64,000 nucleotides of DNA from Cylicocyclus nassatus (taxonomy: Eukaryota; Nematoda; Chromadorea; Rhabditida; Strongylidae). The notes beneath the pieces were generated by a model. The model saw only the letters and a list, made by a program, of their open reading frames with translations, was not told the origin of the DNA and ran no database searches. Each line of letters opens with the position of its first letter. Position 1 is the stretch's first letter. The translations under genes and the position numbers were made by a program. The stretch spans positions 3,084,123-3,148,122 of the forward strand of contig CATQJL010000112.1 of NCBI GenBank assembly GCA_958299035.1. The letters are read 5' to 3'. This document shows, piece by piece, positions 15,069 through 60,625 of this stretch.

Positions 15069-16326
15069 TCAATAAACACAAATAAAATACTTAGAAGTGT
15101 CAATAAACTGCTGGATTGTTCTTGTAGGTTGTTGAGTGACAGTTTCTTCTGAAGTAGCTGGCTTTGGAGGGACCTTTGGCTTGTTTTTACTTTTCTTCTT
15201 CTTTTTATTCTTTCCTCCTGCCTTCCATTTGTTTTTCGATTTCTTCCCTTTCGCTCTGGATATCACTTTCGTTTTGGGAGCTCTTGCCTTTTTAGCTGTT
15301 TTCTTGCGGCCTTTAGGCTTGTTTTTTGGTTTTGACTTTTTGCCCTTTTTGCCCTTTTTACCCTTTGATGCTTTGCCCTTCTTTTTTGTTTGCGTGGAGG
15401 AGGAGCAGGAGGAGCTGGAGTTTGCGTGATGACTGTTTGGGGAGTGGTTGATGGGGTAGTAGTGGGTGCTGTGGTAGTAGTCACTGATGGATCATTGTCG
15501 CTTCGGGCACAGCCAATGTGATTGTCACTTTGCTGTAGGAAAACTCCCAAAGCTGCTGAGAGTTCTGACCTAAAAAGTACATAAAGTAAGAGTATGAGAC
15601 GATTTCATGTAGTACTACGCAAAGTATAGTGCAACAGTTCTGTAGCTTGGGGCTGCATCTGATTGTATGAAAGGTTCGTTTTTGCTTTGAGTGCATCACG
15701 AATCTGATAAGCCAATTTTTCGTACTGGCAGAAGTAAACCTGAAGAATCAGCTGCACGAATATGTACGTCAATTAGACAGTTTTTTGAACACTGAATGCC
15801 GATAATAGGGGTCAAAAACATAAGCCTGATGATAATTCTCTTGCATTAACGGATCTTACCAGACACCATAATTAACCGGCTTCGTCCTAATTTACGATGC
15901 GAAATGAACCACCGATCCTTCGTAAAAGAAGAACCAAGGTAAAGGATTTTGATAGGCTTCTGCTACCAATACAATACCGCTCACATTTCTTGAAAAATAG
16001 ACGCGAATGTATGGACATGTATGGACATGTACGGACATGTCCATACATGTACGGACATGTCCATACATGTATGGACATGTCCGTACATGTCCATACATTC
16101 GCGTCTATTTTTCAAAAAATGTGAGCGGTATTGTATGGCCGGCAAAAGGTCTGAAAAATTTTTTGCCAATCGGTTAGTGTTGCTGAACAAACACAGTCCT
16201 CCTTACAATAGGTTCTACTACAGTTTACTCTTGCTTTACCCTAACTTCACGAATGCGAGACGCACCTTTTCCGTTTTTCTGATAAGCGGCTCGAATGCAA
16301 TCTGTGCCTTGCAAAATGGACGCTGT
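15069..16326 (-). pseudogene. Copy A: decayed member of the Lys-rich CAP-like secreted family
   Basis: Parts of exons 2, 3 and 4 of the family can be followed on the minus strand. A probable exon 2 (16240-16326) encodes a TDCIRAAYQKN stretch. Exon 3 starts at 15739 with VYFCQYEKLAYQIRDAL, matching the family's YxCxxExxAxxIRDxL. Exon 4 starts at 15569 and reads SELSAALG...IGCARSDND, then Thr/Pro repeats, a Lys-rich tract and KYFICVY. Several lesions point to inactivation. Exon 3 runs into a TGA without an in-frame phase-2 donor, and the final VTIIP-type segment is missing. Exon 4 needs a one-base frame change at a six-base homopolymer (15382-15387) to join the Thr/Pro part to the Lys-rich part. 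The protein would stop right after CVY, about 13-17 residues before the ends of the other copies. Exon 2 is about ten codons short, and no start codon or signal-peptide exon is seen upstream. A hairpin element (15972-16133) sits in intron 2. An assembly error could explain the homopolymer slip but not all the lesions. Confidence 0.7.
15972..16133. mobile_element. Small hairpin element with CAATACCGCTCACA ends and decamer repeats
   Basis: A 162-bp near-perfect palindrome flanked by TA on both sides. The ends CAATACCGCTCACA match those of the 1.76 kb foldback at 46017-47777. The core is a run of about ten-base units alternating GTATGGACAT and GTACGGACAT with inverted counterparts, so both strands give open frames rich in Met, Asp, Tyr, Gly and His that are artefacts of the repeat. 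It lies in the second intron of pseudogene A. Confidence 0.8.
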
Positions 16327-16329
16327 CTA

Positions 16330-17900
16330 ACAAAGTTTGGCAAGTTGCAGCACGGTAGAGGGTCTTTTGGTCTCAAAAGTCTTTGATGTGCTCAAGCTTA
16401 TAAAGTTTAGAATAACTTGTGCATCTTGAGATTATGAAATCAGGGTAGCTATTCTATGGATGTTTCTCAAAAAATTTTACGAGTATATTCTGAACCTCAC
16501 AAAGACGAGCAAAGAACTTCATTGAAGATTGTGCTCTGAAGCCTCCATCAAAAAATCCTGCAATACACTCAAATTCTGAAATTGCATGAAGGGTTGAAGT
16601 ATACTGGGAGCTCCTACCTTACCCTTCAATATCAAACAGTTGATGATCTGTCAAAACTGAATATGCTGTCTCATTTCTATCAGCCTATGATAGTTACTAT
16701 CTACACTGTCACAAAAGGCATTGAGATACCGCCCAAATAAATGTAGGTTTGTTAGGATCCGAATACAACCTGTGCGCCCAATGCTGCAAAAGTTGTTGCA
16801 GAAAAGTGGAAGCAATCATCTCGCGACAGGTTCCCAATATGGCTAAACAAGATGTTCGGTTTGTACCGCACCCACCCTCTCTTCGGGAAGTGAATCATAT
16901 TTCATTTCTTCTCTCGTCGTTGATCGTAGCATTCATTGAATATGCGCTCCAACTGGATTCGCAGCCGTCCTTTACAGGGTCAAAATCAGCCGCTCTGATG
17001 CCCTAAGGTTTTGTACACAAAAAGTTTTGTTACAAAGATGAATGACTCTTACGATTATTAGGAGTAGACTGAGGATCATAAGTGGAAAACTGGCTACCTA
17101 TACTTACCTATTAGGTCTTATAAATAAACACACAAACATCAGCACAAGGCAATGGAAGTTGTTCAAACGCAGTTGAATTTCTAGAAGTTTATCCTAACAC
17201 TGTAAGTATACATTTGCAGGATTGCTATATGCACTTCATACATATGTTGTTTATGTATTGGTAACATTTTCATTGACATTACTACCACCACGCATATGTA
17301 CGAAATGTTGCTCTGAAGACGAAATTGCTCTTTAAAAATATGATTGCATTGTTTGAAAAGCTTTGAAAACAATCAAAAAATATTGGAATCAGCATGCGTG
17401 GGGACTCTGCCACATAAATTCCGAGCTTTTAGTTTTCTAATATTTTTTCGGAACGGCAGCTAATCAACTATAGCGCTGTATGCGAAAAATTCCTACAGTC
17501 TACAGTGATAAAGAGCGATCGATGATTCAAGCCATACTACAAAGCTTAGCCAGATCTACAGAGTAATGACTAAAGTTCGGCAAAAGACTTTATGTGAATA
17601 GAATTAACGAATAAAAATGGGCACATCTTTTGAAAACCCTATATTTTGTTTGTGCATATTGCAATTAGTCCTTTTGACAGCAGCAGACAGGCATTCTGAA
17701 CGCTTTTTACACCGTGATCTTCAACGCTTTTTGTTATTGTAAAAATTGCACAAAGGTCAGCTTCATCAGAATGAGGTATGAGGGCAAATGGACTTTTCAT
17801 CTGATTTGGGGAGACGGCTATTCACACAAACAACATTTTGTACTGTGCTGACATCAGCTGACGGTGACGCGAAGCATTTACGTCGTCTGTCTGAATGTAC
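16330..17900. other. No recognised gene
   Basis: Unique-looking AT-rich sequence. Open frames here, such as one near 16749-17006, have no motif or splice support. Confidence 0.4.
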
Positions 17901-17904
17901 AGTC

Positions 17905-18102
17905 GAGTAGATTTTCCGCTTGATATATTGTGCTCGCACACCAGGTACAATCCGGTTAAATTTGCACATGAACAAATAACCGCGCCTGCCGGCATTTTGC
18001 GCGCGCAATCGGCCGGCATCACAGGCGTAACTATTTGTTCACGCGCAAAATTTACCGCATTTTGCTTGCACTATGAGCACACTTCAAGCGGAAAATCTAC
18101 TC
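17905..18102. mobile_element. Short foldback MITE, GAGTAGATTTTCCGCTTGA ends
   Basis: A 198-bp element whose inverted ends GAGTAGATTTTCCGCTTGA match the 11167-12640 element. The interior is a further palindrome around AATAACCGCGCCTGCCGGC. The two copies define a family with very different lengths. Confidence 0.7.
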
Positions 18103-18104
18103 GG

Positions 18105-19024
18105 GCTGTGTCAAGAACAAAGGTAGATCATCCGTATTGTTGATAGTCTCGATCTGTTCACACAACCTCAATCATTACAATGTTCTCAGAGGAGTATATC
18201 GTGAATCTTTCACTCAGTCGAAAGTTTAGGAAAAAGAACAAATCTCACTGTTAAGTGGCTTATTGCAACGCCAATTCCTTACCATACCGTGCATACAAAT
18301 CTGAGCCTATTTGTATAACTTTTGCAACTACTACGGCAAATGCAATTGTATAAATGGAAAGTGTTATGATTATTCATTTATATTTTTTAAAATACACCAA
18401 AGGTGTGCCGAAAATAATACAAGTATCAAAAGCACGATGCTACACGAAATGTTACAAAAATGCTCATGATAGACAAGTGCAGATGAAAGGCTCCTCCCAA
18501 AGTGCAGGTCGTTCTCCTTCTTCTGTGGAGAGTGTTACTCTGTCGAAATCCTGTTTCCTTACCCAGACGCGATGGATGCCAGCACTTAAAAGGGCTGCCT
18601 GATCACTTAACTCTTTGCAAGCGAATCCGCCACTGACCCTGAGCGAGCGAGAAGGGGGAGGGGGAGAGGATCTCAAGGAAAGGGGCTCACCAATTTTGGT
18701 TCCCTCAAACGGCTGAAGAAGACTGCAACCTTTCCGGATGCCTTAGTAAAACCACGAAAATGATTCTCTTAATGCTACCGCTATGTCTGATAAAAGATCA
18801 AAGGGAAAGAAAATTTTTTTCTGCTTTTCTTCCTCTCTTGGCATGTTGTGCAAAAACAATTCCCAAGAAAATGTGCAATCATAAATAGAGTAGTAGGCTA
18901 AACATCAGCTACAGGACATTTTAGAGCTAATTTTTTTCGACGACAGAGTTCTTGGAAGGGATAATCTCGCATGGTAGAAGATCGAGCCATCTGGCGGAGC
19001 GGCACACAAAAGAATTGAAAGCTA
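18105..19024. other. No recognised gene
   Basis: Nothing recognised, apart from a purine-rich GAGCGAGCGAGAAGGGGGAG patch near 18640-18665. Confidence 0.4.
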
Positions 19025-19025
19025 T

Positions 19026-20813
19026 TACTCAGATAATCGCCGGGGGCAGGCGGCCATGCGAATTTTAAGCAAGCGGGCACCGGAAAAATAGTTCGCTGAT
19101 TTCATGCGGTCCGCTTGCAGAAATTTGAAAGAATGTTGGCCAATTTTTAGAGGAAGGCTCGGAAAAGTATCGTGGCTTTTCTATAGATTAGTTGCGGCCT
19201 AGTGGCCGCATTCTCGCGGACTTTCCGCGAGAATTTGCAAAAATATTGAGGGCCGCACGGTCTTTTGTGAAGGACCGCACAGCCCGTAGGTACCTTCCGC
19301 TGGAAGAAAGTACCTCAAACTTGAGTAATTAAACCATCGATGACACCTCTGCCACATAGAGTCTCATCTTTACTCGGCGTATGCCCGAAACTGCGTTAGA
19401 AGTATCCTAGCGATTGCTGAAAGTTTAGCCAGCGCTCGCTGGAAGAAAATATTTGCCGAGCGCTTGCAGAAAATACTGTATTGTTGCCCTCTGGCAGAAT
19501 ATGCGACCATAAAGGAAGTGCCGCCCGCTGAAGGTTTGGCCACGCCCCAAAATTCTGCTGACCGCCTGCAGAAAAGCGCGAGTTTGCGGACCGCCTGCTC
19601 AGATAATCGCCGGGGGCAGGCGGTCCGCAAACTCGCCCTTTTCTGCAAGCGGTCAGCAGAATTTTGGGGCATGGCCAAACCTTCAGCGAGCGGTACTTCC
19701 TTTACCGTCTAATATTCTGCCAGCGGGCAGCGACACAGGATTTTCTGCAGGCGCTCGGCAAATAAGCTCTTTCGGCGAGCGCTGTTCAAATTTTTAGCTG
19801 GCGCTCGGACGGTTTATAAGCGGTTTCGGCCGTACGCCGAGCAAAGGTGAGACTCTACATAGCAGAGGTGTCATCGATGGTTTAATTACTCAAGTTTGAG
19901 GTACTTTCTCTCAGCGGAAAGTACCTGGGGCTGCGCGGTCCTCCACAAAGGACCGTGCGACCCTCGAAAATTTTGCATATTCCCGCGGACTTTCCGCGAG
20001 AATGCGGCCGCTGCGCCGCAGCTAATCTATAAAGAAAACGCGTTTGTCCTCCGAGCGTTCGTCCAAAATTTCGCTAAAATTCTTCCAAATATCTGCAAGC
20101 GGACCGCAGAAAATCAGCGAACTATTTTTCCGGTGCCCGCCCGCGCATAAATAGCATGGCCGCCTGCCCCCGGCGATTATCTGAGTGCCCCCGGCGATTA
20201 TCTGAGTACCTACGGGCTGTGCGGTCCTTCACAAAAAACCGTGCGGCCCTCAATAATTTTGCAATTTCTCGCGGAAAGTCCGCGAGAATGCGGCCACTAG
20301 GCCGCAACTAATCTATAGAAAAGCCACGATACTTCTCCGAGCCTTCGTCTAAAAATTGGCCAACATTCTTTCAAATTTCTGCAAGCGGACCGCATGAAAT
20401 CAGCGAACTATTTTTCCGGTGCCCGCTTGCTTAAAATTCGCATGGCCGCCTGCCCCCGGCGATTATCTGAGGGTAAGACTCTGTGTGGCAGAAGTGTCAC
20501 CGTTGGTTTAATTACTCAAGTTTGAGGTACTTTCTCTCTGCGGAAAGTACCTGGGGGCTGCGCGGTCCTCCACAAAGGATCGTGCGGCCCCCGAAAATTT
20601 TGCATATCCTCACGGAAAGTCGCGAGAATGCGGCCACTGCGCCGCAGCTAATCTATAAGGAAACCGCGATTGTTTTCCAAGCATTCGTCTAAAACTTCGC
20701 TAAAATTCTTCCAAATATCTGCAAGCGGACCGTAAGAAATCAGCGAACTATTTTTCCGGTGCCCGCCCGCCCATAAATCGCATGGCCGCTTGCCCCCGGC
20801 GATTATCTGAGTA
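19026..20813. mobile_element. Cluster of nested inverted repeats with TACTCAGATAATCGCCGG ends
   Basis: The outer ends are TACTCAGATAATCGCCGGGG and its inverted match. The motif CAGATAATCGCCGGGGGCAGG, or its complement, recurs about six times (near 19030, 19603, 20157, 20180, 20447 and 20790). A block at 19027-19300 recurs inverted at about 20197-20470. An inner palindrome spans about 19325-19880 and is centred near 19610. A unit of roughly 310 bp at 19880-20190 is repeated directly at 20490-20813. The sequence is rich in CCGCGAGAATGCGGCC and similar CG-containing palindromes. No transposase frame is seen. It reads as a composite of several copies of one non-autonomous DNA transposon. Confidence 0.65.
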
Positions 20814-21028
20814 GCAACTTTTTACCCGTATGATAAACCGAAACCGCCGGTTCTTCCACAAAGTCTAAAAATATATCTAGATCCGTTTCTATGATATCTG
20901 CGACATTCGACAAAAATTGTTCATTTTGACTTGCTGACTGATTATGACTTTTGATCTTGCTGCGCTAGCTTGAGTTCTGCAAATACAATGCAAGCAAGAT
21001 AGAAAATCTTGACCAATGGCTAGAACCA

Positions 21029-21402
21029 CTCAGACAATCGGTGCCGTAGTCGCGCCGGACAGTCGAAATCTGGCAGAGCCGCGGCGGACCCAATTGACCA
21101 ATGAGAGCGGGCGAGGGGGCAGTCCCTTCTTGTAGGTCACGGTGACGTCACCGGCAGGCGAGTGGGACCCTTCTCCGGATCTGCTCCAAAGGTACGCCAT
21201 ATCTGCTCCGGAGGTACGCCAGATTTGGCAGAGCCGCGGCGGAGAGATTTGCCCGCCGCGAGTACGCCAGATTTGGAGGAAATGGCAGGGCTCCGGAGCA
21301 CAAATGGGAGGGCTTTGGAGCACGAGTGGCAATCCCCAGCTGGGGAAACCCCGCGGCTCGGCCATTTCTGCTCCGGAGGTATGCCGTCGACTGTCTGAGC
21401 AA
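21029..21402. mobile_element. Small GC-rich foldback, CTCAGACA(A/G)TCG ends
   Basis: Short inverted ends (CTCAGACAATCGGTGCC at the left, inverted CTCAGACAGTCGACGGC at the right) enclose repeated blocks such as CTCCGGAGGTACGCCAGATT on both strands. The ends resemble those of the 19026-20813 cluster only loosely. The overlapping open frames are by-products of high GC content. Confidence 0.45.
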
Positions 21403-23772: not shown

Positions 23773-24782
23773 TCATTCAGCGAAGTTGTTTCCTTCTTCT
23801 ACGACTCGCAATTTGAAAACGCACACGTAATAGGTTGAGTTGTAAGACTGATTGAGATCAAACGTGGGAAATGTGGTTACTACAGGCGTAGTAGTTTGGG
23901 ATTGAACCGGAGGAATCTTGATCGGAGGAGGTGGAGGTTTCACTGCTGGTTTCTGAGGCTTCTTCTTCTTCTTCTTCTTCTTCTTCTTCTGCTGCTGCTT
24001 CTTCTTCTGCTTCTTCTTCTTCGTCTTCTGCTTCTTCTTCTTCTTTAAGGATTTTTTGCCCTTTGATTTCTTTGCTTTTTTGTTTTTAGGTTTTTTGGCT
24101 TTTGCTTTCTTAGGGGGAGGTGGTGGTGGTGGCTTGGGAGGTAGTGGTGCTGTTGTTGTCGTCGTCGTAGTTGTTGTAGTAGTGGTAGTGGTCGGCTCTT
24201 CATGTTTGTGCTCGTTGTCGCTGTAGGCGCAGCCAAGAGCATCTGTCTTTTCTGCCACAATCACCAACTCTTTTGGGAGTCTAGCTCTGCAAAATGTGAA
24301 GAACACAAGCTGCTATGGAGAGCTCCCACAAAGTATGAACTAACTTCGGAATAATTGTGACGCGAAATTTCGTTTGTTCTTTTGCGCTTATTTTGAGTAT
24401 CAGTTCCTGAGCTTCAAGTTGCAGGCGGGAAAGACTGAAGCGCTCAGACTTGTTGGATGATTGAAGTAACAGAAGTATGTCGCGAATCCTAGCGGCTTTC
24501 TCCTCGCAACTGCAGTCATATTGCTAAAGTGAAAGACTTCCCATAATGGTTCAATTTTTTTTATGATTTTCTTACTCACTCTTCTTGAGATCAACTTTAG
24601 CACCTCGTTTCTCCCCTCCTCGTTGGTTTCGTGCCAGACTCCGTATGCCCTCCAACGTTTTTCACAATCCAAGAACGCATGAATACTAGTAACTATGATA
24701 GCCTGGATTGCATCACGTAAAATATGTAATTCAAGACAAAGTTTGGAGGACTTACGTATAACGGAATCAAACTCGAAATCAT
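23773..24782 (-). CDS. Gene B: secreted CAP-like protein with poly-Lys insert (4 exons)
   Basis: Exons on the minus strand are 24782-24756, 24702-24580, 24523-24345 and 24286-23773. All have GT-AG introns of 53-58 bp, phases 0, 0, 2, and join to 281 codons including the stop (280 aa). Residues 1-18 form a signal peptide (MISSLIPLY... ending SIHA). Cys22 lies in FLDCEKRWRAYG. Exon 3 carries YDCSCEEKAARIRDIL (Cys54 and an extra Cys56) and ends in VTIIP. Exon 4 has ALGCA (Cys129), then Thr repeats, Pro repeats, a long Lys tract and Pro-rich PPIKIPP, and closes with YYVCVF (Cys265). The pattern resembles a shortened nematode CAP/SCP (ASP-related) domain, with the Lys tract between the GCA and final Cys strands. 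That family assignment is inference. The function is unknown; a secreted basic protein at the host or cuticle surface is plausible. The Lys tract is encoded partly by an AAG microsatellite. Confidence 0.82.
23957..24052. repeat. AAG/CTT trinucleotide tract inside gene B
   Basis: The plus strand is an almost pure pyrimidine run of CTT and TTCTTCTTC units, interrupted by CTG and CTGC. It encodes most of the Lys/Gln tract of gene B on the minus strand. Replication slippage here would change the length of the basic loop in frame. Confidence 0.85.
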
Positions 24783-24808
24783 TTGCGGATGTAGTCACAT
24801 GTAATCGT

Positions 24809-24816
24809 ATTATATA
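24809..24816 (-). promoter_or_regulatory. TATA-like box of gene B
   Basis: The minus strand reads TATATAAT within GCTATATAATACG, with its near edge 27 bp upstream of the gene B start codon. Genes C, D and E have TATA-like boxes at a similar distance, which supports a shared core promoter and a very short leader. Confidence 0.5.
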
Positions 24817-24829
24817 GCAGCCATTGTGA

Positions 24830-26049
24830 ACCTACCATCATGAAAACTAGAGGGCACTCGAGGTTTTCGAATGACTCCAGCGCATCGCATATGATTCTGT
24901 GCACTTCATGAAAAGCGTCGGCAGCTTGACACTCTCATGATAAAGGCTAACGTTGTTGTCCGTCCAGTAGAGTTCAGAATGACGAAATGTTCACTTGGAC
25001 GAATACTATCGCTATCATATCTAATTCAGGCCGAGTGATTTAGAAACCTTCAATCGTTAAGCCTCCTAAGTTTTCTCGTACGATTATTCTAAGCTTAGGG
25101 GATACCCTTGCTACAGAATAAAGTATTTCAAACTTTCTCGTTTGACAAAGCTGAAAACGTTTCCTTTACTAACTGGATTCGATATTTCACATCTTGTGCA
25201 GTGAGTTTGTGGAAAAACTGAAAGACAGTGGCTTAGCAAATTTGCGACTGTAATATTTTTAACACTTGAGCTCGCTGGATGTTCTGAGTAAACATTGAAC
25301 CTCCCGAAAGACGAAATTTGCTTATTTTGTTGATTTTCGGCCGTGCAGACTGAAAGAGTGGGCCAGTAATTCGTGGTTCTGAGGAGATTGGCCGTTAAAA
25401 TGGGTGGGTGAAGCTGATCTTTTTTCAGGCAGTCTTTCAAGCCCAAAAGCGGGTTTTGATATGAATGCTGAGTATTTGAATTCTGCAAAGCAAAGTTTTG
25501 GCCTCAGCACGCTCACGAACTCAAAAATGCTTTGTAAGCCTGAGAAAGCAAATCTGCAGAGCCGCTGCATTTTTGGAAGGGAAAGATGAAATTTGCTGCT
25601 CAGACATATGTGCGATAATTGGATTTAAGGATCGCACTTCCATGCCATAAACTTTGCATGTTTTCATTTGATTTATAGTATACACATTCCATTTTATTAG
25701 TACAGGTCTTCTGCCTTTATAATAACAAGAGCTTTCCCAACAGTGATAAAACGGTCATGCCGCAATTTCTTTGACACAAATTGGTTTGGTTGGCATGTTG
25801 AAAAATGTGGTTTATGAATGAATCCCCAAGTTATGTGTTAACAAACTCTGAACTGTTAGCTAACCTCCTACATATTTGTCTCAAGTAAGCCTAAATCCCA
25901 AATGCAGAACGAACTACACATAAAAGTGTTACTTGTCTCTGCCTGAATTGATGTGAATAGCATATTTTGGATTTTGGACTGAGGCGCAACATGACTTTCT
26001 AAATGAGTAAGGTTAAGCTCGCTTACCAACAGCTGGAAACGTTGATACC
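24830..26049. other. No recognised gene
   Basis: This is the upstream flank of gene B. Overlapping open frames at 25111-25589 lack motifs and splice support. Confidence 0.4.
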
Positions 26050-26911
26050 ACAGTTGTGACCTTGGAATTTGTCCAAAATTGCGGGATTTTCGGGATTCGC
26101 GATGTTTGCGGGATTCGCGACTTCACGGGATTTGTGGGATTCGCGGGATTGGCGGGATTTAAGGGATTTAGCTATAACTTCTTTTAAATCCACTTTATTT
26201 GCAATCTGCGTGTAGATTTGACTTCAGCTTGATGAGACGAATTGTTTGATATACAGTATGTCCGTAATTCGTGGTGAGGGGGTAGACTTACAATGATACC
26301 TTGTTGTTCTCTATGTTAAGGCTTTTGTGAACATTTATCACAGCGTAAATCACGAATAGCAGGTTCTGGTACGAAGTTTTCATTATCGAAAACTATCGCG
26401 AAAAATTGGGCAGTTTTTATTTACCCTTATCACTGATATAAGCATTTTATCATTTATCACTGATAATATCATATTTTTGGATCATTTTTTGCATATGGTA
26501 AGGAAAGTACTGTAGGAAAAGCTGTGTGAATTTCTATCGCTCTTTCTCTCATTATAAGTGATCTACAGGCTTTTCTAGTTCTATTGCTCGGTGCAATTGG
26601 TAGATCCCTCGCTGCAGCAATCGATCGATTTTCCATCGGCACATGCCATTGCTGTCAATTCTTACCTAGAATGGCATTTTTGCTTCAACTCGCTTCACGC
26701 CGAAGCCTGGGCTGAAATTCTGCACCTATATGGAAGATGAACGTGGAAATCGACCGCATGAATTTAAGCCATTCTTATCTGTCGTTGTCATTGATATCAT
26801 CATTTTATCATTTATCACTGACGACACAAAATTGATTCATTTTTGATATACAATAAGAAATGTACTTTAGAAAACGCTGTGTGAGTTTTTATCGCTCTAT
26901 CTCTTATAGTA

Positions 26912-31747: not shown

Positions 31748-31756
31748 ACAAATTCT

Positions 31757-32647: not shown

Positions 32648-33632
32648 TTATTCGTTTTGAATTTCCTCTAAATACACGCATACATAAAAGATCAAGGGCA
32701 TGGGTTTCAAATGAGGTAGGAATGGTATGGTTGATGGTTTAGACGTGGTAGTGGGTTTTTGCATCGGTTTTGGAACTACTTTTGGAACTACTGGCCTTTT
32801 CTTCTTTTTGCCCTTCTTCTTCTTCTTCTTTTTGACAACCTTTTTATTCTTTTTAAACGGCTTTTTCTTTTTCTTTCCTTTTTTCGATTTCTTTTTTTTC
32901 TTTTGCTGTGGTTTAATCGGAACCCTCGCTGCTCTGGTTGTTGTTGTCGTCGTTGTGGTTGTTGTCGTTGTTGTGGAAGTAGTGGTTACAACCAACGCGG
33001 TGTCAGCCAGAGCGCAACCAAGTCCCTTCTTTGCCTTTTCCGCCAAGTCCGTAACTTCGAATTGAGCTTTCCTTTAATGTGAGAGATTTTATGTTGCAAC
33101 GATGTAAAAGACCAAACGCACTTTTTTATGAGTTTAACCTTTAGTGGATCATTTTGAACATCCTTTCTCAAAATCTTCAGTGCTTCGTTTTCTAAGTACA
33201 GTAGGCTGATTGTTTTTGGTTTAAACTCTCTTTCCAGCACATCGCGAATTATAGCAGCTTGCTGCTCCATGTAGCAGTTGTATGGCTGAAAACAAAGATA
33301 ACTAAATACGTATGTCCTTCTCTACAGTCAGTAATATTGCATCATAAACAGAAGATTCCACAGACTAGCAGCTTCAAAAATCACCTGAAAATTTTTTCCA
33401 AACTACTAACTCACATAGTTCGGCCTCAAAAGCTCCTCTTGGAACTTTTTTCTTTCCTCGTCGTTGTCCTTATCTTCATAAGCATACGCACGCGTTCTGT
33501 ATTCCTCGCAAATTGCGTTAGCGGTACCATTCAGTGCAAAGACCTGGAATTCATAGGAGAAACCCATTATACTCATAAGTGCTACGAACTTACGATTAGA
33601 GTTAAAGCGAGTAACCCGGAGCCCAGGATCAT
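32648..33632 (-). CDS. Gene C: secreted CAP-like protein with poly-Lys insert (4 exons)
   Basis: Exons on the minus strand are 33632-33594, 33543-33415, 33285-33122 and 33071-32648. GT-AG introns are 50, 129 and 50 bp, phases 0, 0, 2, giving 252 codons (251 aa). The signal peptide is about residues 1-23 (MILGSGLLALTLIV... with an ANA cleavage site). The mature protein has exactly four cysteines: Cys25 (ICEEYRTRAYAY), Cys60 (YNCYMEQQAAIIRDVL), Cys129 (GLGCA) and Cys242 (FYVCVY). Between the last two lie a run of 14 or more Thr, a short spacer and a long Lys tract with few other residues, then a Pro/Thr linker. The Thr run could be O-glycosylated and the Lys tract would bind polyanions, but both are inferences. 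The layout suggests a reduced CAP/SCP domain of the nematode ASP-related type. The gene structure is well supported; the function is unknown. Confidence 0.87.
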
Positions 33633-33661
33633 GCTTGACTGTAGACAAACGCACTTTTCTG

Positions 33662-36899: not shown

Positions 36900-39445
36900 A
36901 TATGCAAGATGTGGTAAATGGCATCAAGACTTAGTGATACTGATAAAGCCGAAGCCCTTGGTACTTACTTTGCTAGTGTTTGTTCTCCTGTTAGTAATCA
37001 TGTTGCATACACTGCGTCGATGGATGTTAACGTGACGCCAACTCATAGCTGTGTTGACGTTACTTTCATCCATCTAGTGTGTACAACTTCCTTAGAAAAC
37101 TCAAGCCCTCCCTCACGGACACTTTTGATGGTATACCGCATGTACTTGAAATGCGCGTCATCGCTTGCGGCTCCACTCGCACACATTTTCAATATATCTA
37201 TGATGTTGGGAGAAGTTTCGCCTATGTGGAAAGAAGCCTTGGTTACAGCCATACCTAAAGTTGATGGAGCGCTTTTTCTCACCAATTTTTGCCCCATCAG
37301 TTTACTGCCTACCCCTGTCAAAATCATGGAAATAATTATACGAGGTAAATTAATTAATTGGTTCAATAACTCGGGTCTAATCCCCGATGAACAGCATGGA
37401 TTTTTTGAACGGTGCTTCTACCACCACGAATTTGGATGACAGTGTGTTCGATTGGAGCTTGGCGATCAATGAGGGCAAATCTGTTGACATTATTTACGTT
37501 GACTTACTAAGGCATTTGATAAGGTTTGCCATCCTAACTTACTGAGTAAATTAAGCAAAATCGGAATCGGAGGTAATCTGCTTTCCTAATTTACATCTTA
37601 TCTGTATGATCGACATATGACTGTTAGAGTTGGACATCATTACTCCAAAAAGTACTGCTGCACTAGTGATGTCCCTCAGGGGGGTGTTTTAGCCCCTTTG
37701 CTCTTCCTGATTTATACCCTCGATCTACCATCTGTTTTGAAAACCTCTCCTAGCATACAAGTAAAAATGTATGCTGATGATATAAAAATTTATGGAGCAA
37801 TGCTGAAGAGAAAGCCCCAGAAGCTCAGCTTGCACTGCAAACTTCTCTTGATAAATTGATCAAGTGGTGTGATAGCTGGGATCTAGCGTTGAACCTTGAC
37901 AAATGCTCAACGCTTTATCTTGGAAATGCTTCTACAATCTCCTATCACATCAAAGGCACTACATTGGAAGGATGTGATGCTGTTAGAGATCTGGGCGTCC
38001 TGATTGATACAAACCTTAGCTTCACTAAGCACGTCGATATGACAATCAAGAAAGCGTCTTCTTCGCTTTTCATGCTTTTTCGAAATACTAGTACCAACTC
38101 CCAAGGATACTGATATCGCTCTATAAAGCGTTTGTTCTCCCTCACCTGGAATACTGTTTTCAGATCTGGTCTCCCTTCCGCAAAAAAGATATGCGTAGAG
38201 TAGAAAAGGTTCAACAACTTTTTACGAGGTTGTTGTACAGACGTGTATCACCCAGAGTGGCCCCACCTGAATACCACGACCGTCTTAAGAAGCTTCATAT
38301 GGAGTCTTTAACACATCGGCGGGTATTTTCGGACCTTGTATTCTGCTTTCGAGTTCTAAGGAGAGAGAACAAACTAAAAGCTAGCAAGTACTGGATTTTT
38401 GTTCCCACCAGTGAAAGGTCTGGTTCTTTTAACCTGCAATATCTAAGAATCCGACGCAAAAAATACCTACTGATGTTCAATAATGTGTTTTGTAGGGGAG
38501 CTAGGTGGCTTTCGCGTCTCCCTATTGATACCACTAGTGCAGATAGTAGCTATATTTTCAGGAATAGACTAAGAAGACTTGACTTGTCAAGTATCGCTGA
38601 AAATGATTAGCGTTGCCTGACAGTCATAGCCTTTTTGTATCAGCGATGCTGGACTTAATTTATTTGCTTGGGATGTGCTATACGACTGTGTTTATGGATG
38701 GATTTCCGATATAGGCTTTGTTTTCTACCACATTTTATTCCAATTTTCATCTTTAAAGTCTGCCATTTCAGGTGCTCTTTTGGTCTTATGATGGTTTGCT
38801 TTTCAATTATGGCTATAAATTATGGCTTTGACGTCTTTCGTGTGTCTCCTCACGTTACGTCATACCTGTAATTTCGGTCTACTTGTTTTCTTCTAGTTAC
38901 TAACCAGTCTCTCATCATCATCTTAGTCCGAGTCTTTTTCGCTCAGCTATCCAGTATTCAATCGTACAGCTTGCTGGTTCAACAGAGTGATCTGAATGTG
39001 AATCTTTTCACCTTTGGGGTCATTGAGCCTCCCCAGCATTCCGATTAGGCGGGGTTATGGTATTTATACCTGTGCCAGTAGATTCGCCTGATAAGCTGTC
39101 GGTTTGCTTTTAAGATTTAATACAAAGATCGTTCCGCTGGCAACGAGGGGGCATGGGTCCCATCTCCTTGGAGTTATAACTGTTGAAGTTATGAGCATCA
39201 GTGCCTATCAATGCCTACATACTTATACATATCTAGCTATTAGCCTATCAACATATTCAATGCAAGCCGTTTCATCTTTCTTACATTAGTCTGACTAGGA
39301 TTAGACTACGATTGATATGATGATGTCTGCATTCGTTTACTGCTTATTCCGCTGTATCACTAACTTCTCGATTTGTGTTTTGTGTTTTTTCTTTTGTATT
39401 CGAACGCCTTGAGCGTACAAATGAAAATGAAAATGAAAATGAAGA
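36900..39445 (+). pseudogene. CR1/jockey-type non-LTR retrotransposon, 3' part, frameshifted
   Basis: Reverse-transcriptase blocks run in order on the plus strand. They are KAEALGTYFASVC (36950s), WKEALVTAIPK...ISLLP (37230-37320), GLIPDEQHGF (37375-37400), DVPQGGVLAPLLFLIY (37670-37720), KMYADDIKIYG (37765-37797, the catalytic YADD box), WDLALNLDKCSTLYLG (37878-37925), DLGVLIDTNLSFTKHV (37990-38035), and a carboxy-terminal HRRVFSDLVF...FRNRLRRLD region ending at 38610. Frame changes near 37439, 37510, 37850 and 38110 disable it. An untranslated stretch follows and ends in four ATGAAA-type hexamers at 39421-39443, the kind of short-repeat tail CR1 elements carry in place of poly(A). The endonuclease part is absent, so the copy is 5'-truncated. 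Confidence 0.85.
39421..39443 (+). repeat. (AAAATG)n tail of the CR1-type element
   Basis: About four copies of AAAATG mark the 3' end of the retrotransposon relic. Short tandem tails of this kind are typical of the CR1 clade. Confidence 0.7.
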
Positions 39446-44422: not shown

Positions 44423-45318
44423 TTATTCGTTAGTGGACAGGTTCTTTACTGCTGATCGACCATAGTAGATACACACATAGTAAGGTATTGGAACAATCTT
44501 AGTTTTAACAATTGGTTTAGGTGTAGTAGGCTGCACTGGAATTTTGATCGGAGCGCTAGGCCTTTTAGGCCGTTTTTTGGTCTTCTTTTGCTTTGATCCC
44601 TTACGTTTCTTTCCTCCCTTTTGCTTTCCCTTTTTTCTTGGTTTGGGTTTCACGTTCCGCGGTGGAGGCGGCGCTGGCGCTGGGGTTGTTGTTGTTTGAA
44701 CTATGAGCTCTTTTCGTTCCTCATAGGTAGTGCCAGAGGCACAGCCGAGTGCAGTTGCCTTCTTCTCCAAATCTTTCAACTGTTTCGTGAGCTTCCCCTC
44801 TCTGAATATGAAAGTACAAAAAAGTTTAGCTTAGAGACTTCAACTCACTTGGGAATAATAGTAACATCCCATTTTGCCTTTTTTCTATCCCCTTTCAGTT
44901 CGATTTCGGCTTCTTTTAGCAGCTGAGTAAGTGTGTATCTTGATTTTTTGGCGAGCAAGTTACGAAGCTTTGACGCCTCAGACTCTAGCCAGCAGATGTA
45001 TCTCGGCGATTGCTAAAAGTGAATGCAAGATAGACGTGCCATAGATAATTCAGCAAGCTATTAAGAAATTGGTAAAAACTTATAAGACACACTTACAATA
45101 TTATTGAAAAGTAGACCTTTCAAATAATCCCTTTCTTCGCTATTCTTAACGGGGATCTTTGAATATGCAGCATAGCCGTCAATGCATGGAGTCAATGCAG
45201 CTTTCGCGTAGGTTGCTGCAAAAATCTGAAACAAATCGAAAGCTCTTTAGAGTAACTCCTAGCATGTTTGCGATATGTATAAGAAACCTACGATCAAACA
45301 GTAAATGTTGGCGGCCAT
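44423..45318 (-). CDS. Gene D: secreted CAP-like protein with Lys-rich insert (4 exons)
   Basis: Exons on the minus strand are 45318-45292, 45225-45097, 45012-44849 and 44801-44423. GT-AG introns are 66, 84 and 47 bp, phases 0, 0, 2, giving 233 codons (232 aa). Exons 2 (129 nt) and 3 (164 nt) have exactly the lengths seen in gene C. The signal peptide is about residues 1-18 (MAANIYCLIIFAATYAKA). Mature cysteines are Cys23 (LTPCIDGYAAY), Cys59 (YICWLESEASKLRNLL), Cys127 (ALGCA) and Cys217 (YYVCIY). The insert is the shortest of the intact copies (about 90 residues between the last two cysteines), with little poly-Thr, a PAPAPPPP stretch and a Lys/Arg/Gly tract, then PIKIPVQPTTPKP. The stop codon lies inside an AATAAA hexamer, which could also serve as the polyadenylation signal. 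It is a probable ASP-related secreted protein of unknown function. Confidence 0.87.
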
Positions 45319-45340
45319 CACTGAATAAAGCAAAGAACAT

Positions 45341-45348
45341 CTTTTATA
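45341..45348 (-). promoter_or_regulatory. TATA box of gene D
   Basis: The minus strand reads TATAAAAG within AAATATAAAAGATG, with its near edge 23 bp upstream of the gene D start codon. It is the clearest TATA box of the family. Confidence 0.55.
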
Positions 45349-45359
45349 TTTACCTTTGT

Positions 45360-46014: not shown

Positions 46015-46016
46015 TA

Positions 46017-47777: not shown

Positions 47778-47779
47778 TA

Positions 47780-48834: not shown

Positions 48835-48966
48835 CGGCTGGAAGGCGGGGTTCGTGACCTACTCAAGGCGAGAGAATGATCAGAGAGCAAGCGCGCGAGA
48901 GAGACGCAGACTGCATCGCGAGCGCGAGCGGCTTTAATTGGGTCACAAACCCCCGTCTTCCAGCCG
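48835..48966. mobile_element. 132-bp MITE, CGGCTGGAAG.CGGG ends
   Basis: The left CGGCTGGAAGGCGGGGTTC and the inverted right CGGCTGGAAGACGGGGGTT form ends of about 25 bp around a purine- and CG-rich core. No target duplication was identified. Confidence 0.6.
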
Positions 48967-53419: not shown

Positions 53420-53905
53420 CGCAAAAAAAATTTTGTGCCCGGATAGCCGAATAGCGCCAAACTAATATCGAACTCGTAATCAGCATGCTCCTACCCCCTC
53501 CCCTGTGCCAAATCCCAGCCCCGTAGTTCAAACTTTGCAACAAAATTGATAAAATCGATAAAAGTAATCGATAATCCTGAAAACTAATATTGTATTCGGA
53601 ATCCCCATGCTCGATTATCCTCCTGTGCCAAATCCCAGCCCCGTAGTTCAAACTTTGCAAAAAAATTGATAAAATCGATAAAAGTAATCGATAATCCTGA
53701 AAACTAATATTGTATTCGGAATCCCCATGCTCGATTATCCCCTGTGCCAAATCCCAGCCCCGTAGCTCAAACTTTGCAAAAAAATCGATAAAATCGATAA
53801 AACTAATGAACGATTAAAAACCAATATTGTATTCGTAATCAGCATGCTCGATTACCCCCCTGTGCCAACTCCCAGCCCTGTAGGTGAACTCTGCAAATCG
53901 ATAAA
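53420..53905. repeat. Minisatellite, about 120-bp unit, four copies
   Basis: Units beginning near CCTGTGCCAAATCCCAGCCC occur at 53501, 53621, 53740 and 53859, a spacing of 119-120 bp, each with a GATAAAATCGATAAAA block. The two central copies are almost identical. They form the core of the Helitron-like repeat. Confidence 0.85.
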
Positions 53906-54056
53906 AATCGATAAAGTCGATATCGATCGATGACGAAAAGTAGCCTGTGACACCCGCCGGGCCCGGAGTGTATGTATGCCAAGTTGGGTCCGGATCGGTT
54001 AAGAAATGGAATTTTCTATTTGGAACATACGTACACACATACAATCATCTTATATA

Positions 54057-54892
54057 TTAGGTTGTCCCGAAAGTTTTGTCGGTTTTTTTCATCGCTCACC
54101 AAACCTCACAGAACACCATTCCATGAACGGCCTAGGTGTCAATCTATTCATATTTTTATCCTCTTTCTTATAGCTATAATTGTTCCCTGATCTACCCCGT
54201 CTTTGCGATGTTATCGCCATGGCTTTTTGAGCACCTCAGCAGTAACGCCAAAACTTTCCTGAATTTTCAAAAAATTTTTCTTGATATTTTCGAAGAGCGC
54301 TAGTGACTGTTATGTAAGGCAAACCTTTGGCTACATTGTGGCTGTTTTAGATTACGTGGGCCACGTTTATCAAGTCCGTGATAATTATTTATTACCGAAA
54401 ATTCCAAAAAGCTGATTTTTGAAGCAAATCAACTTGGTTATGTTGCATAAATGATGCTTAATAACAACCAATTTGAATTCGCAAAAACTTCCTAAGTTTT
54501 CATGCTTTTGCTGCAATTGGGCGTTTCATAACTCAGCCAAAAATCGAGACCTTAGAAGAAATAGTTTTTTGAAGTCAAAATCAGCAAACTAGGGGAATCT
54601 AAAAATACCATTTTGTAGCCCGAGAGTTGCTCTATTTGACTCATACTTGATCTTTTTCAAAACTATGTAACGAAATTTTTAAAAATCAGCTCAACTTTGA
54701 GCAGGTAAAATTGACAGGTGGAGAATTTCGGCAATTACCAAAGAAACCATGTAACATTATGGTATGTAAGTGCATCCATAAGAAAGAGAAGGAAAAGCTG
54801 CATCGAATGCATGTTGAAACTCACTCAGGTCTTTATTGTGCGTGGTGTTACAGTGGTCTGAAAAAACCGACAAAACTTTCGGGACAACCTAA
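54057..54892. mobile_element. Mariner-type foldback, TTAGGTTGTCCCGAAAG ends
   Basis: Inverted ends TTAGGTTGTCCCGAAAGTTT are flanked by TA (54055-54056 and 54893-54894). It is the same family as 7480-8631 but lacks the secondary insertion, so it serves as the empty-site comparison for that copy. It has jumped into the TA-rich head of the Helitron-like repeat. Confidence 0.85.
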
Positions 54893-55165
54893 TATAAAGC
54901 TGAATGTCTGTTTGTCTGTATGTCTGTCTGTGTAGACAGACAGACATACAGACAAACAGATATTCAGCTTTATATATAAGATGATTTAATGATGGGTCTA
55001 AAAAACGGCACCAATTTTCGGACCCGCCTAATAAAAATGCGCAATGTTGACTGCATATTTTCCTTGACCTGCGGACTTTCCATGAAGATATACGAGCTAC
55101 ATGTGGCAGAAATATAGAAATACACAGGATAAATATCTACCATCGTTTTAGACCTATGTGATTAA

Positions 55166-55579
55166 AGGCAGTGGCTCCGCAAAATCGAACCTCTCGAAAT
55201 CTTTATACGGAAGGTTCCTTGCACCCCAAACACGAGAATGGAGCAGGTCCGAGCGCGCAGCATGCAACACCTGCCTAGAAAATTGCCCCTAAATCCGTGC
55301 GCGCAAGCCATTCTTACACGCACTTGAACGAGCTCGCAATACTCCTCACGCCGCCAGAGGCGGCATGCCGCAATGCTATGAACATGAGGCTACCACAACA
55401 CTCTGCGTCTCTAACCATGGCGGGAACCGTTCCACTCGTCCAGATTAAAACTAAGAGGTCTTGGAAGATGCTGGTTTTCGCCATTTTTAGGTCTTAAGGT
55501 GGATTTTTGGATTCTGCGCGTCTAATTACCCCGGATGAGCGAAAAAACCAAAAGTGGAGGATTTGCAGAGCCACTGCCT
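55166..55579. mobile_element. TTAA-flanked MITE, AGGCAGTGGCTC ends
   Basis: Inverted ends AGGCAGTGGCTC and GAGCCACTGCCT are flanked by TTAA on both sides (55162-55165 and 55580-55583), as in piggyBac-type elements. The interior is GC-rich and non-coding. Confidence 0.82.
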
Positions 55580-56072
55580 TTAATTGTTCAAAATGTTGAA
55601 AAAAGAAATCTACAAAGCGGTGGTCAATTGCTAGGGGTTCTCTGATAGTGAAATCCGCACCTGAGTTGAACACCCAGCACGCGTCGGTTCCAACTAGAAA
55701 ATTATTCAAGTCCAAGTCTAATAAGCTATTTGAAATGCGAACGAATACTGATAACTACAAATCTGTATCTGAATGTTGATGTGAAAAATATGCTCTCGAG
55801 AAAGAGCTTAGGTGACGAAGATATATTGTATAATCATTTCATGCTGAATCCATTTTTATTCAATCTTCATAAGTCTCTACTAAACCCTTCGTCTCTGTTT
55901 ATTATTCTGGTATAGTATTCTAATACATTATAAGTATTGTGTTTATCAGACAATACGCATTAAGAGCTGTCATGAATATCGCGGCAGAGTGAAAACGACA
56001 AAATATGAGTGGGTTTTATTTAACAGAGCAAACCAAGCTTTGTAAAAGGGAGTTCGAATATTCGCACCTTAA

Positions 56073-56513
56073 AGGCAGCGTCTCGGCAGAATGAACCTAC
56101 CTCAGATTTTGACACAAATGGATAGGAGGCCCTCCAATTGAAGCAAAACAGCAACCCCGCGTCGAAAATGTGCAATCTATGAGCCAGGCGAACGGCCTAA
56201 CCGTCGCTCCCTTCCTCCGTTCTCCCCCCTAACACCTTATTCGGACGAGTGTGTTCTCCGCTAGAAAACGCGCCGTCAATCGTAGCTTCGTAGGGCAGAA
56301 TTGTTCTAGTGCTCTCTACCTCCTTACTCTGCGTCTCCGACGGCAGAGAAGAACGGCTCACTCGTCCGCGCCCGTCTCAAAGGGGATTTCAAAAGACGGG
56401 GTTTTCCCCATTTTTGCGCTAAGGGAAGTTCATGTCGTGATTCAGGGGGCCGGAACGGAATAGCCCCAAATCTGCCGAAACCCCGAAGTTGAAAATCTGC
56501 CGAGCCGGTGCCT
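56073..56513. mobile_element. TTAA-flanked MITE, AGGCA(G/C)CG..TCGGCAGA ends
   Basis: Flanked by TTAA (56069-56072 and 56514-56517), with inverted ends AGGCAGCGTCTCGGCAGA and the inverted AGGCACCGGCTCGGCAGA. It is related to the 55166-55579 element and, more distantly, to 39904-40204. Confidence 0.8.
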
Positions 56514-56519
56514 TTAAAC

Positions 56520-57543
56520 ACCAACTTCCTACAAAAGGTACTGACTGCTGACTACGACAATACCTAAGAGTAGAAGGGCTTCCTTGATGATTTGTAGTGG
56601 ATAATTGTAAGACAACAAGTTCTTAAATTTTCGCTGCGCTTTGTCGCAGTATGCAAAAATCCAGTTGTCAGTAATTGAAGAAGCACTTTCGACAAACAGT
56701 TGCGCGACAAGTTGGAAGCGGTGCTTAATGTGGAGATGTAACATGTTATAGGCTGTCCGCGCAGATCGGAGTGCGCAAAGTGTGTATCGCGCGCTCTCCT
56801 CTTTTCTCATGCACTTTCGTTGCTTGTTTTCTCTTCGCCTCTTCATCATGAACTATCTTCGATGAACGCGGCAGCGTTGCACGGTGCGGGCGGCCTATAC
56901 AGTCTTATTATCTAAACTGAGATTCTGAAAAAATTGAAAAAACGCATAGCATTTGGAATTTTTAGGAGTACGCACAAATCCTAAGGTAGCATATGTCCTA
57001 CCTGAACACATGCCTTCAAAAATAAGCATGCAACAAAATCATCTCGTTGCATCGATTTCGTTCTTCACTTTGGACAAAAGCTTACGATACCTCCCATTTT
57101 TAATCCAGAGTGGAAGGCAGACGAAGGTATAGGGCATTCAAAAAATCTAATAGCGCGAACGCGCGCAACACGCACGCGTCTTCCGGCAACCCATTTTCTT
57201 AGTATTCATATCTACTTGAGGTTTTTCTGCTCATATATGATAAGATTTACACACTGAAGGCGATTGAACTTTAAGGTGATGCCTTTTTCTATAAGTGTTT
57301 TATGCTGTGGGCACAAAGACCGAAGTCGAATCCGTCGTCACGATTTCAAATGAGCTATAGATTAATCATACTCAGCTTCGCTACGTGGGTATCAGTCCAA
57401 TTAAAGACACTGAGAATGCGGAAGTCCGATCTATTGGACTATAATAAAAGCTCTTGAAGTCTTGATTGATAGTTGAGTGCTTTATCCAAAAGAACAATAA
57501 ACAATAAGGCTGTAAGCTGTACATAACTAATTGATAGAGTAGA
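56520..57543. other. 3' flank of gene E, no recognised gene
   Basis: A minus-strand frame at 56529-56849 (106 codons) ends in a hydrophobic ALLLLGIVVVSS segment, but there is no family match or splice support. Nothing else is recognised. Confidence 0.35.
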
Positions 57544-59393
57544 CTAATTTCTTTTAGAAAGTTTTTGCTTAACAAATTGTTTTTCAAAAGACACACATAT
57601 GTAATAAACGTCGATAGCGGGTGTAGGAATAGGCTTTGTCTGCTTCTTCCGCTTAGGTTTCTTCCGCTTGTTCTTCTTCGCTTTTTTCCCCTTTCCTTGC
57701 TTGCTTTTCCTTGATGGAGTTTTGGGTTTTTTATTTCCTTTATTATTTTTTCCATGCCTTATATTTTTCACTGGTGGAGCGTTGAGTTTCAACACCCTAT
57801 ATGTCATAGCTTCAGATTTCATTTTTGCTTTTGTCTTTCCTCCTTTCTGTTGGCTTTTCTTTTTTGGTTTTTTGGGATTTTTGATTCCTCCCTTCTTGTT
57901 CACTTTTTTGCCTTTCTTAGGTCCTTTGTTTCGCTTTCCTTTCCTTGTCACAGTGGTGGTGACAGGGGTGGTGCTGGTGATTTTATCTGGTTGCTTGTCT
58001 GGTTTGCGTTCAAACTGTGCACAACCGATAAGTGCTGCCTGTTCTTGTAGTTTCTTGAGTTCACTGTGGAGATCTTTCCTGCAAAACATCATTTCATAGT
58101 TTACATTAGGTAAAACGATCATATAGTCTAGACTTGCTTTTCTATAACTGTAGAGTTTAGTTGACGTCGCCGTTCGTTAAGTATGTCCTCCGCTAGCTCT
58201 TGTAGTTCGGAGAAGGAGATGGAGATGCTTTCGTTTTGCTTCAGTTCAGTCACAAGTCTGTCACGAATCTCAGACGCGAACTCCTCGTAAGAACAAGCGT
58301 ATTTCTGGAAAAGTACGCTGAAATTGGCAGTCACTAATTTGAGGAGTGTGGTGCAAGAGGAACGATAGCAATTGCCAGCCGCTGCTGCCAATACAATATT
58401 TGCCTCGAAGTGCGCAGATTTCAGACTTATAAACTTGAGTAAAACTGGAGTGAATGCTCTACCGATGAATTCTGCTTAGAGCCCAGTGGTAAGTGCAGTT
58501 TGGTAATGTTATTGCAAGAAAAACTTGAAATACTTGAAGTTTAATCTTTAAAATCCTTTTTTGTTTAAAACTTATTTTCACAGTTCATTTTCAAGCAAAC
58601 AGGCTCTATCTCACTTTCCTGTTCATATGAAAGTGTAATAGGAAGAAATGCTCTAGGTTTCTGCGTACTGGTGGACAAAAAGGACGTTAAAAGATGCGCG
58701 AGTTATTGACACCCACAAGCAATCGTTCCGCTTGCTCGCCACCCGCATACGAGGGTTTTACATGATCTAACGTTTTTAAACTAAGAAGGGAAACACATAT
58801 CATTGCTTCAATACAACATCATTTCGAATCTTGATCTACTCACCCCTTCAGTAACAAGATTTACGATTTCTTGCCTTTTTTGGTCATTTTCTATCTGAGT
58901 ATTAGCATAGGCATGGAATCGCAGATAGTCTTCGCATATTGCTCTGACATTAGTTACAGTGGCCTGGAACGTTCTCATTAAAAGGGTTTTATATCAGTGA
59001 TTTTCTGGAAAGGTTCGGAAATATCACATACACCAATCAAAGGTTTTAAATGTAAGTGTTAGGTCATTCCGAAAGTGATTTCGCTTTTTTCAAACGGACG
59101 CCACATGTGATGGAAAAAACATTTTAAGGTGATCTTGGTAGCATTTGATGCAGTATTTCATCCTCCTTTAACAGTAGTGAAATCTTTGCAGCTCTGTCAT
59201 TGAGCTTTCGGAAAATAACCAAAACCTGCGACCCATGCTTTTTGAGATCGTCAAGTTTCACAATTTTTCAAAACTTTCATATCAAACCTCAGAAGGAATG
59301 CAAGTAACGATTAGATAGAGCAAACCCTACAGGATACAAATCAATTTTTTTCTCCTTCACATACCTCCTCAAAATCTTATATATAAAGCTGAA

Positions 59394-59428
<35 letters not shown>

Positions 59429-60625
59429 GCGTATGAGCGGAATAGAAATTTTTATTTCTGAACCGATTTGGATCAAACTTGGCACACATATACTTCGGGG
59501 CAGGGAGCGTGTCACAGGCTACTTTTCGTTATCGAACGACATCGATTTTATCGATTTTTTGCAAAATTTGAGCTACAGGGCTGAGAGTTGGCACAGGGGG
59601 GTAATCGAGCATGCTGATTACAAATATATTATTGACAGGCCCGGGCGGAGCTGGGCATGCCAACTAGTTTTTTAATAAAATTTCAATTGATGCTACCAAT
59701 TTTCATACTTGGTCAACTCAAATCTCGTAGAACATCAATGAGAGAGCAGCTCGGGTGCTGTTTGATGCAGCTTTCTCTCCTCTTTCTAATAGATGTCTTT
59801 TGTTTCCGATTTGTTCAGTTTTCGGGGATAAAATCGTCATAACTCATGTTTTTGAACGCGCCCAAGGCTGTACTCGAAAAACTCGAAGTTAAATATTTCG
59901 AATCCGTATCTCTCATTTGGTTTATAAAATCAACGTTAAGTCATATATCACTTTGGAAGCTTCGAATTCCAAGTAATTACTGATGTTTGATGCGATTGTG
60001 ACTGACATAGGCTTGCCAAAATCCAATAATTTTGGTGAAAAATACCTTCAAAAAATTACGGCGACCAATGAAAAAGAGAAAAAAGTTGTGCTGTATCCTA
60101 TAAGGTTTGCTCTATCTAATCGTTATTTGAACTTCATCTGAGGATTGATATGAAAGTTTTGAGAAATTGTGAAACTTGACAATCTCAAAAAGCTCGGGTC
60201 GCAGGTTTTGGTTATTTTCCGAAAGCTCAATGACAGAGCTGCAAAGGTTTCATTACTTCTGAAAAGAAGATGAAATGCTGCATCAAATGCTACCAAGATC
60301 ACCTTAAAATGTTTGTTCCATCACATGTGGCGTCCGTTTGAAAAGAGCGAAATTACTTTCGGAATGACCTAATAATTAGCTGAGAACTTTCAAGCACTTT
60401 TGATATCACTTACTAAAACCGAATGTGGTTTTTATGCTCAACTCCAACTTTTACCATCACGAATATATACCACATACGATTCTATGCATGCTGAAATCTT
60501 CTCGGATATCTTTTAAGGTTTTCTACTTCTAATGAACTGAACCCGTCATTATCGGCAATTTGGGCGCAAGTATTACAATAGAATAAAATACTTACTAGCA
60601 GTAGGAAGAGGCTGACATTCGGCAT
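57544..60625 (-). CDS. Gene E: secreted CAP-like protein with long Lys-rich insert (4 exons)
   Basis: Exons on the minus strand are 60625-60596, 58963-58844, 58304-58138 and 58078-57544, phases 0, 0, 2, joining to 284 codons (283 aa). Intron 1 (1,632 bp) is swollen by a mariner foldback (59059-60372). Intron 2 is 539 bp. Intron 3 (59 bp) has a GC donor (AAGCAAGT), the common non-canonical type. The signal peptide is about residues 1-18 (MPNVSLFLLLATVTNVRA). Cysteines are Cys20 (ICEDYLRFHAYAN), Cys54 (YACSYEEFASEIRDRL), Cys125 (LIGCA) and Cys267 (YYICVS). The insert is the longest (about 141 residues between the last two cysteines). It has two Lys/Gly-rich halves separated by a less basic MTYRVLKLNAPPVKNI segment. 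The last motif ends in Ser where the other copies have Tyr or Phe. It is a probable ASP-related secreted protein of unknown function. Exon 1 is the least certain part because of the long intron. Confidence 0.82.
59059..60372. mobile_element. Mariner-type foldback in intron 1 of gene E, TTAGGTCATTCCGAAAGT ends
   Basis: Inverted ends TTAGGTCATTCCGAAAGTGA and CTTTCGGAATGACCTAA match the 12976-13957 family. The right flank is TA, while the left flank is TG, probably a mutated TA. The arms are long and inverted, and the left arm is interrupted by the Helitron-like insert at 59377-59667. Confidence 0.82.
59377..59667 (+). mobile_element. Short Helitron-like repeat, nested in the mariner foldback
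   Basis: It starts TTATATATAAAGCTGAATG, then has a (TCTG)n run (59395-59427), a TTTGAGCTACAGGGCTGAGAG block, and the tail CCCGGGCGGAGCTGGGCATG ending CTAG next to T. It is the shortest and cleanest copy (291 bp) and defines the ends of the family. Confidence 0.68.

Follow-up and report, generated by a model that had tools for sequence, protein, structure and literature searches.

A cluster of probably ASPR-like genes with lysine-rich inserts in the horse nematode Cylicocyclus nassatus

We analysed a window of 64,000 nucleotides (C112:3084123-3148122) from the 514.7 Mb genome of Cylicocyclus nassatus, a strongylid nematode whose host is the horse. The window carries a family of genes for predicted secreted proteins, which combine a cysteine-containing core with a lysine-rich insert. 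An earlier note on this DNA had described four intact genes on one strand, each with four exons and intron phases 0-0-2. This was borne out: the exons are open when read on the minus strand (table 1), the phases are the same in all four genes and 11 of their 12 introns have GT-AG ends. For the third intron of G57 a GC-AG model was used (donor AA|GCAAGT), because no GT donor was seen in the phase needed by exon 4, and the exon 2-3 junction of this gene is present in the public model P0001 as well. Every intact protein of the window has a cysteine in exon 2; exon 3 encodes the motif Y-x-C-x-x-E-x-x-A, and exon 4 has GCA in its early part and a near-terminal (Y/F)Y(V/I)C, whereas the IRD that had been listed with these motifs occurs in three of the four, G44 having LRN. 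All six full models of the family begin with a hydrophobic stretch, by hydropathy only a putative signal peptide. Most of the first intron of G57 consists of an inverted-repeat element (window 59053-60378), with arms of 190 nt (89%) and 117 nt (93%) and a TGTC-repeat tract between them.

Table 1. Positions of the family members, their inserts and the comparison gene. Positions are those of the window unless a contig is named; K, lysine; T, threonine; net, net charge.
Feature	Position	Strand	Description
Intact gene G57	57544..60625; exons 60625-60596, 58963-58844, 58304-58138, 58078-57544	-	283 aa
Intact gene G44	44423..45318; exons 45318-45292, 45225-45097, 45012-44849, 44801-44423	-	232 aa
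Intact gene G32	32648..33632; exons 33632-33594, 33543-33415, 33285-33122, 33071-32648	-	251 aa
Intact gene G23	23773..25018; exons 25018-24995, 24702-24580, 24523-24345, 24286-23773	-	279 aa
G57 insert	57607..58017	-	137 aa, 32% K, net +47; between GCA and YYIC
G44 insert	44483..44737	-	85 aa, 24% K, net +23
G32 insert	32690..33010	-	107 aa, 31% K, 20% T, net +35
G23 insert	23833..24225	-	131 aa, 31% K, net +36; runs of 14 T and 10 K
Decayed copy	~17079-15069	-	stretches like all four exons, in order; exons 2, 3 and 4 broken
Tenth copy, intact	C305 ~21.9443-21.9454 Mb		on another chromosome
ASPR gene of the same genome	C1:69889.6-69890.23 kb (L044)		exons open; PF17641 over cut-off in one exon at C1:69889925

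One or two decayed copies had also been proposed. The window holds one, in which the frame of exon 2 is broken, exon 3 contains a stop and exon 4 a frame change, and which retains a threonine/proline-rich and then a lysine-rich stretch and the closing YFICVY. No second decayed copy was found in the window, and another lies just outside it (C112 ~3149.7-3148.5 kb). A palindromic stretch is found inside the decayed copy of the window (15938-16167), with arms of 113 nt that are 80% complementary and ~10-base units of the ACATGTCCGT type. Genome searches with P0001, tblastn and exon-wise hidden Markov models (HMMs) revealed that the cluster continues beyond the window, up to ~C112:3177.7 kb. It comprises nine copies from ~3099.2 to 3177.7 kb (~78 kb), every one on the minus strand, of which seven look intact and two are decayed. 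Including the copy on C305, ten copies were found and eight of them look intact; genome-wide, these counts are lower bounds. The exon-wise HMMs were run over 264 kb around the window. In the flanks of the cluster, 115 kb on the left and 70 kb on the right, they found no copy with at least two exons; a few single-exon scores (E-value (E) 0.02-0.45) were discarded as chance. Genome searches with the cores of G23 and of another copy, e, gave no further copy. The coding sequence was joined in full for G57, G44, G32, G23 and copy a. For c and e the join covers exons 3-4, and exons 1-2 were read on their own (exons 1-3 of e are also in the public model P0002).

Both public models lack the lysine-rich part. 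P0001 (345 aa; C112 3142-3156 kb) fuses exons of three adjacent copies, and P0002 (C112 3176-3178 kb) ends after exon 3. Two profile searches of ~5.8 billion proteins returned a single protein apiece, P0001 in one and P0002 in the other. Both are C. nassatus models from this cluster, and no homologue from another species was found.

The insert lies between the last two conserved cysteines (GCA ... (Y/F)Y(V/I)C), which are separated by 89-141 residues in the family. In the window genes it consists of a threonine/proline-rich flank, a lysine-rich middle and a proline-rich end. The description of these inserts as giant poly-lysine proved too strong: in the window they measure 85-137 aa with 24-32% lysine, and the longest lysine run is 10. 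Among all eight intact copies, the one on C305 included, the insert has 24-38% lysine and a net charge of +23 to +49. Without it the charge is -8 to +10 (for c and e, calculated on the exon 3-4 part), and the basic charge thus sits in the insert. In copies c and e (C112 3165-3176 kb) the insert also contains a dibasic sequence, RRKRS or RHKRS, which by eye could be a proprotein-convertase site.

An insert of this kind might be a drifting low-complexity expansion of codon repeats that is tolerated in a loop and has no function of its own. Its length varies over the range given above, a loop is a permissive site, and simple repeats are present in G23 (CTT x29 on the plus strand) and G32. Several observations speak against drift. 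The insert is strongly basic in each of the eight intact copies, even on another chromosome; its lysine codons are a mixture of AAA and AAG; and motifs that are not plain lysine recur, KARMAP in the inserts of copies a, b (decayed) and C305, and SAAKMPAK in those of c and e. For c and e, which resemble each other more than the other pairs compared, the ratio of non-synonymous to synonymous substitution rates (dN/dS, Nei-Gojobori) is ~0.40 in the core (72 codons) and ~0.30 in the insert (114 codons), not above the core, with dS near 1. The other three pairs tried yielded no ratio for the insert, its dS being saturated. Because of the shared basic charge, the recurring motifs, the c/e ratio and the mixed codons, the comparison would point to the insert as an old, kept protein feature, and we consider drift unlikely. 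The ratio itself has to be read with caution, since it comes from a single pair and a protein-guided alignment of low-complexity sequence, with a dS near 1, and is biased down.

To place the core, we compared it with a library of 24736 Pfam models. Using trimmed mature cores in which four X residues (4-X linker) stand for the insert, the ASPR (Ancylostoma-associated secreted protein related, or ASP-related) model PF17641 was the best match in five of the eight copies (E 0.00087 for a, 0.0042 for e, 0.025 for both G44 and G23 and 0.36 for c), and all five alignments extend to the last model position (118/118). No other family recurs among the eight cores, and the unrelated family that a search with masked proteins might have brought up, as the earlier note had envisaged, did not appear. 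None of the eight cysteine-fixed shuffles of these constructs matched PF17641. The signal is recurrent, yet it depends on how the insert is trimmed.

Relatedness to ASPRs was further assessed using ASPR features taken from Pfam, from the hookworm protein P0003 (A. ceylanicum, 138 aa) and from passages of later papers. In A. ceylanicum, ASPRs were defined as 92 genes distantly similar to ASPs, as stated in a passage of PMC6497320. P0003 scores 79.6 bits against PF17641 and weakly matches a solved CAP protein, Ac-ASP-7 (PDB 3s6s), over YDCGLE...FGC (E 0.024). We identified an ASPR gene in the C. nassatus genome itself (table 1), whose exon 3 shares 69% identity with P0003 and whose protein returned P0003 as its sole match in a protein search. 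The cysteine layout of P0003 (C, YDC-LE--A, GC, LC-Y) has the same four-cysteine order as our family, in which Y-x-C, GCA and the last cysteine are present in all eight aligned copies; the exon 2 cysteine is also found in each of them, in an alignment column that is not constant. The last two cysteines, however, are 12 residues apart in P0003, far closer than in the family.

Gene structure points the same way. The intron before exon 3 of the ASPR gene is in phase 0 and lies one residue before YDC (V-YDC; L044:929). In seven of the eight family copies the exon 2/3 intron is likewise in phase 0 and one residue before Y-x-C, and in G44 it lies four residues before. Six of six CAP genes read from the acceptor side have their acceptor one residue before Y/W-D/N-C-x-x-E-x-x-A, at a codon boundary. 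These six belong to a group of 16 that start at model position 17-18, among 25 listed matches of the CAP model PF00188 in the C. nassatus genome (scores were computed for 150 of 314 candidates). With CAP proteins of the SCP/TAPS type such as Ac-ASP-7, the family shares this intron site, as seen in the six CAP genes read, and, via the ASPRs, the Y-D-C-x-L-E-x-x-A and GC landmarks. It differs from them in having no PF00188 match and no histidine among its invariant positions, so that the classical CAP pocket is not recognisable. The core is also shorter than a CAP core.

Several results weigh against placing the family among the ASPRs. Copies G57, G32 and C305 never match PF17641, and no copy reaches its gathering cut-off of 26.3 bits, the best being copy a with 19.9 bits. 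With a 10-X linker none of the four window copies matched at a threshold of E 1, and a 13-X linker gave a match for a single copy out of eight (copy a, E 0.012). With the 4-X linker and longer ends, copy a matched (E 0.0047) and copy e did not. The shuffled control was run on the best construct form only, and its unrelated single matches reached E 0.0035, which marks the noise level. PF00188 was matched in no scan, masked or unmasked, and the four unmasked window proteins gave no CAP or ASPR match at E 1; their Pfam matches were low-complexity, below cut-off and driven by composition, and were rejected. An NCBIfam scan and a PDB search by sequence returned nothing relevant. Aligning the family profile to P0003 with hhalign gave a probability of 1.3%, and the family HMM scored P0003 at 4.9 bits, a value that 10 of 5000 full shuffles also attained, as did 9 of 5000 in which C and G were fixed; sequence alone is therefore weak support. 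The last intron differs between the ASPR gene (phase 0, 8 residues before GC) and the family (phase 2, ~20 before GCA), and the ASPR gene as modelled has one extra N-terminal intron compared with the four-exon family. The six CAP genes were picked precisely because their matches begin at the intron site. AlphaFold2 models were rejected as uninformative for their low mean predicted local distance difference test scores, 41 for P0003 (with exons of the C. nassatus counterpart) and 56 for P0002 (exons 1-3 only, with exon 3 rows).

Weighing both sides, we think it quite probable that the family is ASPR-like and derived from CAP proteins, as a divergent variant that is not a member by the Pfam rule. 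The reduced CAP domain close to ASPRs that the earlier note had suggested is in this sense supported, though not proven: the PF17641 matches, the cysteines and the intron speak for it, the scores below cut-off and the absence of PF00188 against.

How could such a protein use its insert? The cysteines of GCA and YYVC may pair with each other like their counterparts in CAP proteins, and the insert would therefore form a loop that is anchored at either end. The last inter-cysteine loop of a divergent ASPR-like protein would in this way have become a polycationic arm. Its threonine/proline-rich flank may serve as a stiff, perhaps O-glycosylated stalk and the proline-rich end as the return, with a probably disordered lysine-rich middle between them. 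A loop carrying +23 to +49 on a low-charge core would be expected to bind polyanions, for instance glycosaminoglycans, mucin in sulfated or sialylated form, or extracellular DNA. Such binding would retain the protein in the worm's habitat, the gut mucosa. For a protein secreted by a nematode, polyanions of the host mucosa appear to be the likeliest targets. Whether the insert is a polyanion-binding arm could go either way. For the whole explanation, in which highly divergent CAP proteins of the ASPR branch would be held on host polyanions by a positively charged arm, we see about an even chance. Human GAPR-1 offers a partial parallel, as an intracellular protein with a full CAP domain and no lysine-rich insert. 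It is a CAP protein that responds to a polyanion, since heparin affects its aggregation, according to a passage of PMC7554809. Our literature searches, at the level of titles and abstracts, met no account of lysine-rich CAP or ASPR proteins.

Alternatively, the insert could be a cross-linking or cement module, whose lysines are joined by a transglutaminase or an oxidase and which builds the egg coat, sheath, cuticle surface or mating plug instead of being directed at the host. Low-complexity sequence rich in threonine/proline and lysine is typical of extracellular structural proteins, and unmasked G32 has weak low-complexity Pfam matches that include New_glue and MUCL1. These matches are, however, composition-driven and below their cut-offs, and the core resembles the ASPRs, a family found among adult hookworm secreted proteins: an excreted/secreted set of 198 proteins from adult Necator includes 35 ASPRs, according to a passage of PMC7274458. 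We thus regard a cement role as improbable. We give similarly little weight to the arm being antibacterial or binding bacterial surfaces (lipopolysaccharide, teichoic acids), which would protect the worm or its niche in the horse large intestine. The strong positive charge of all eight intact copies would suit this role. The horse large intestine is rich in bacteria, whereas runs of lysine only are less typical of pore-forming peptides. That the core is not CAP-derived at all, and belongs to a distinct family of small, helical secreted proteins with four cysteines in which Y-x-C, GCA and YVC arose by convergence, seems to us the least likely of the alternatives: the missing PF00188 match, the trimming-dependent ASPR matches below cut-off, the weak hhalign result and the lack of homologues from other species in two protein searches favour it, whereas five copies converge on a single model of the Pfam library, and to its end, which no shuffle did, and the intron has the place and phase seen in ASPR and CAP genes.

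Some features of the window lie outside the family. Three open frames on the plus strand (36918-38610) resemble, by eye, fragments of a reverse transcriptase from a non-LTR retrotransposon and had no Pfam match at E 0.01. Tandem arrays are present at 19920-20471 (unit of 286 bases) and 53499-53897 (unit of 120 bases). An Rfam search of the window gave no match.

If the polycationic arm is real, a reduced CAP domain might have had its last loop turned into a disulfide-anchored lasso. More tentatively, and with considerable doubt on our part, such proteins could represent a new class of secreted mucosal anchors, which would lock onto mucin, glycosaminoglycans or neutrophil DNA while the ASPR-type core acts on the host. 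Annotation can drop lysine-rich exons, as both public models found here show, and similar genes may therefore be missed in other strongyles. We know of no function for ASPRs. They are abundant among hookworm secreted proteins, as a passage of PMC7274458 indicates. A version from a horse parasite that is expanded in copy number and carries a separable cationic arm would offer a clean test of how such proteins are retained at the mucosa.

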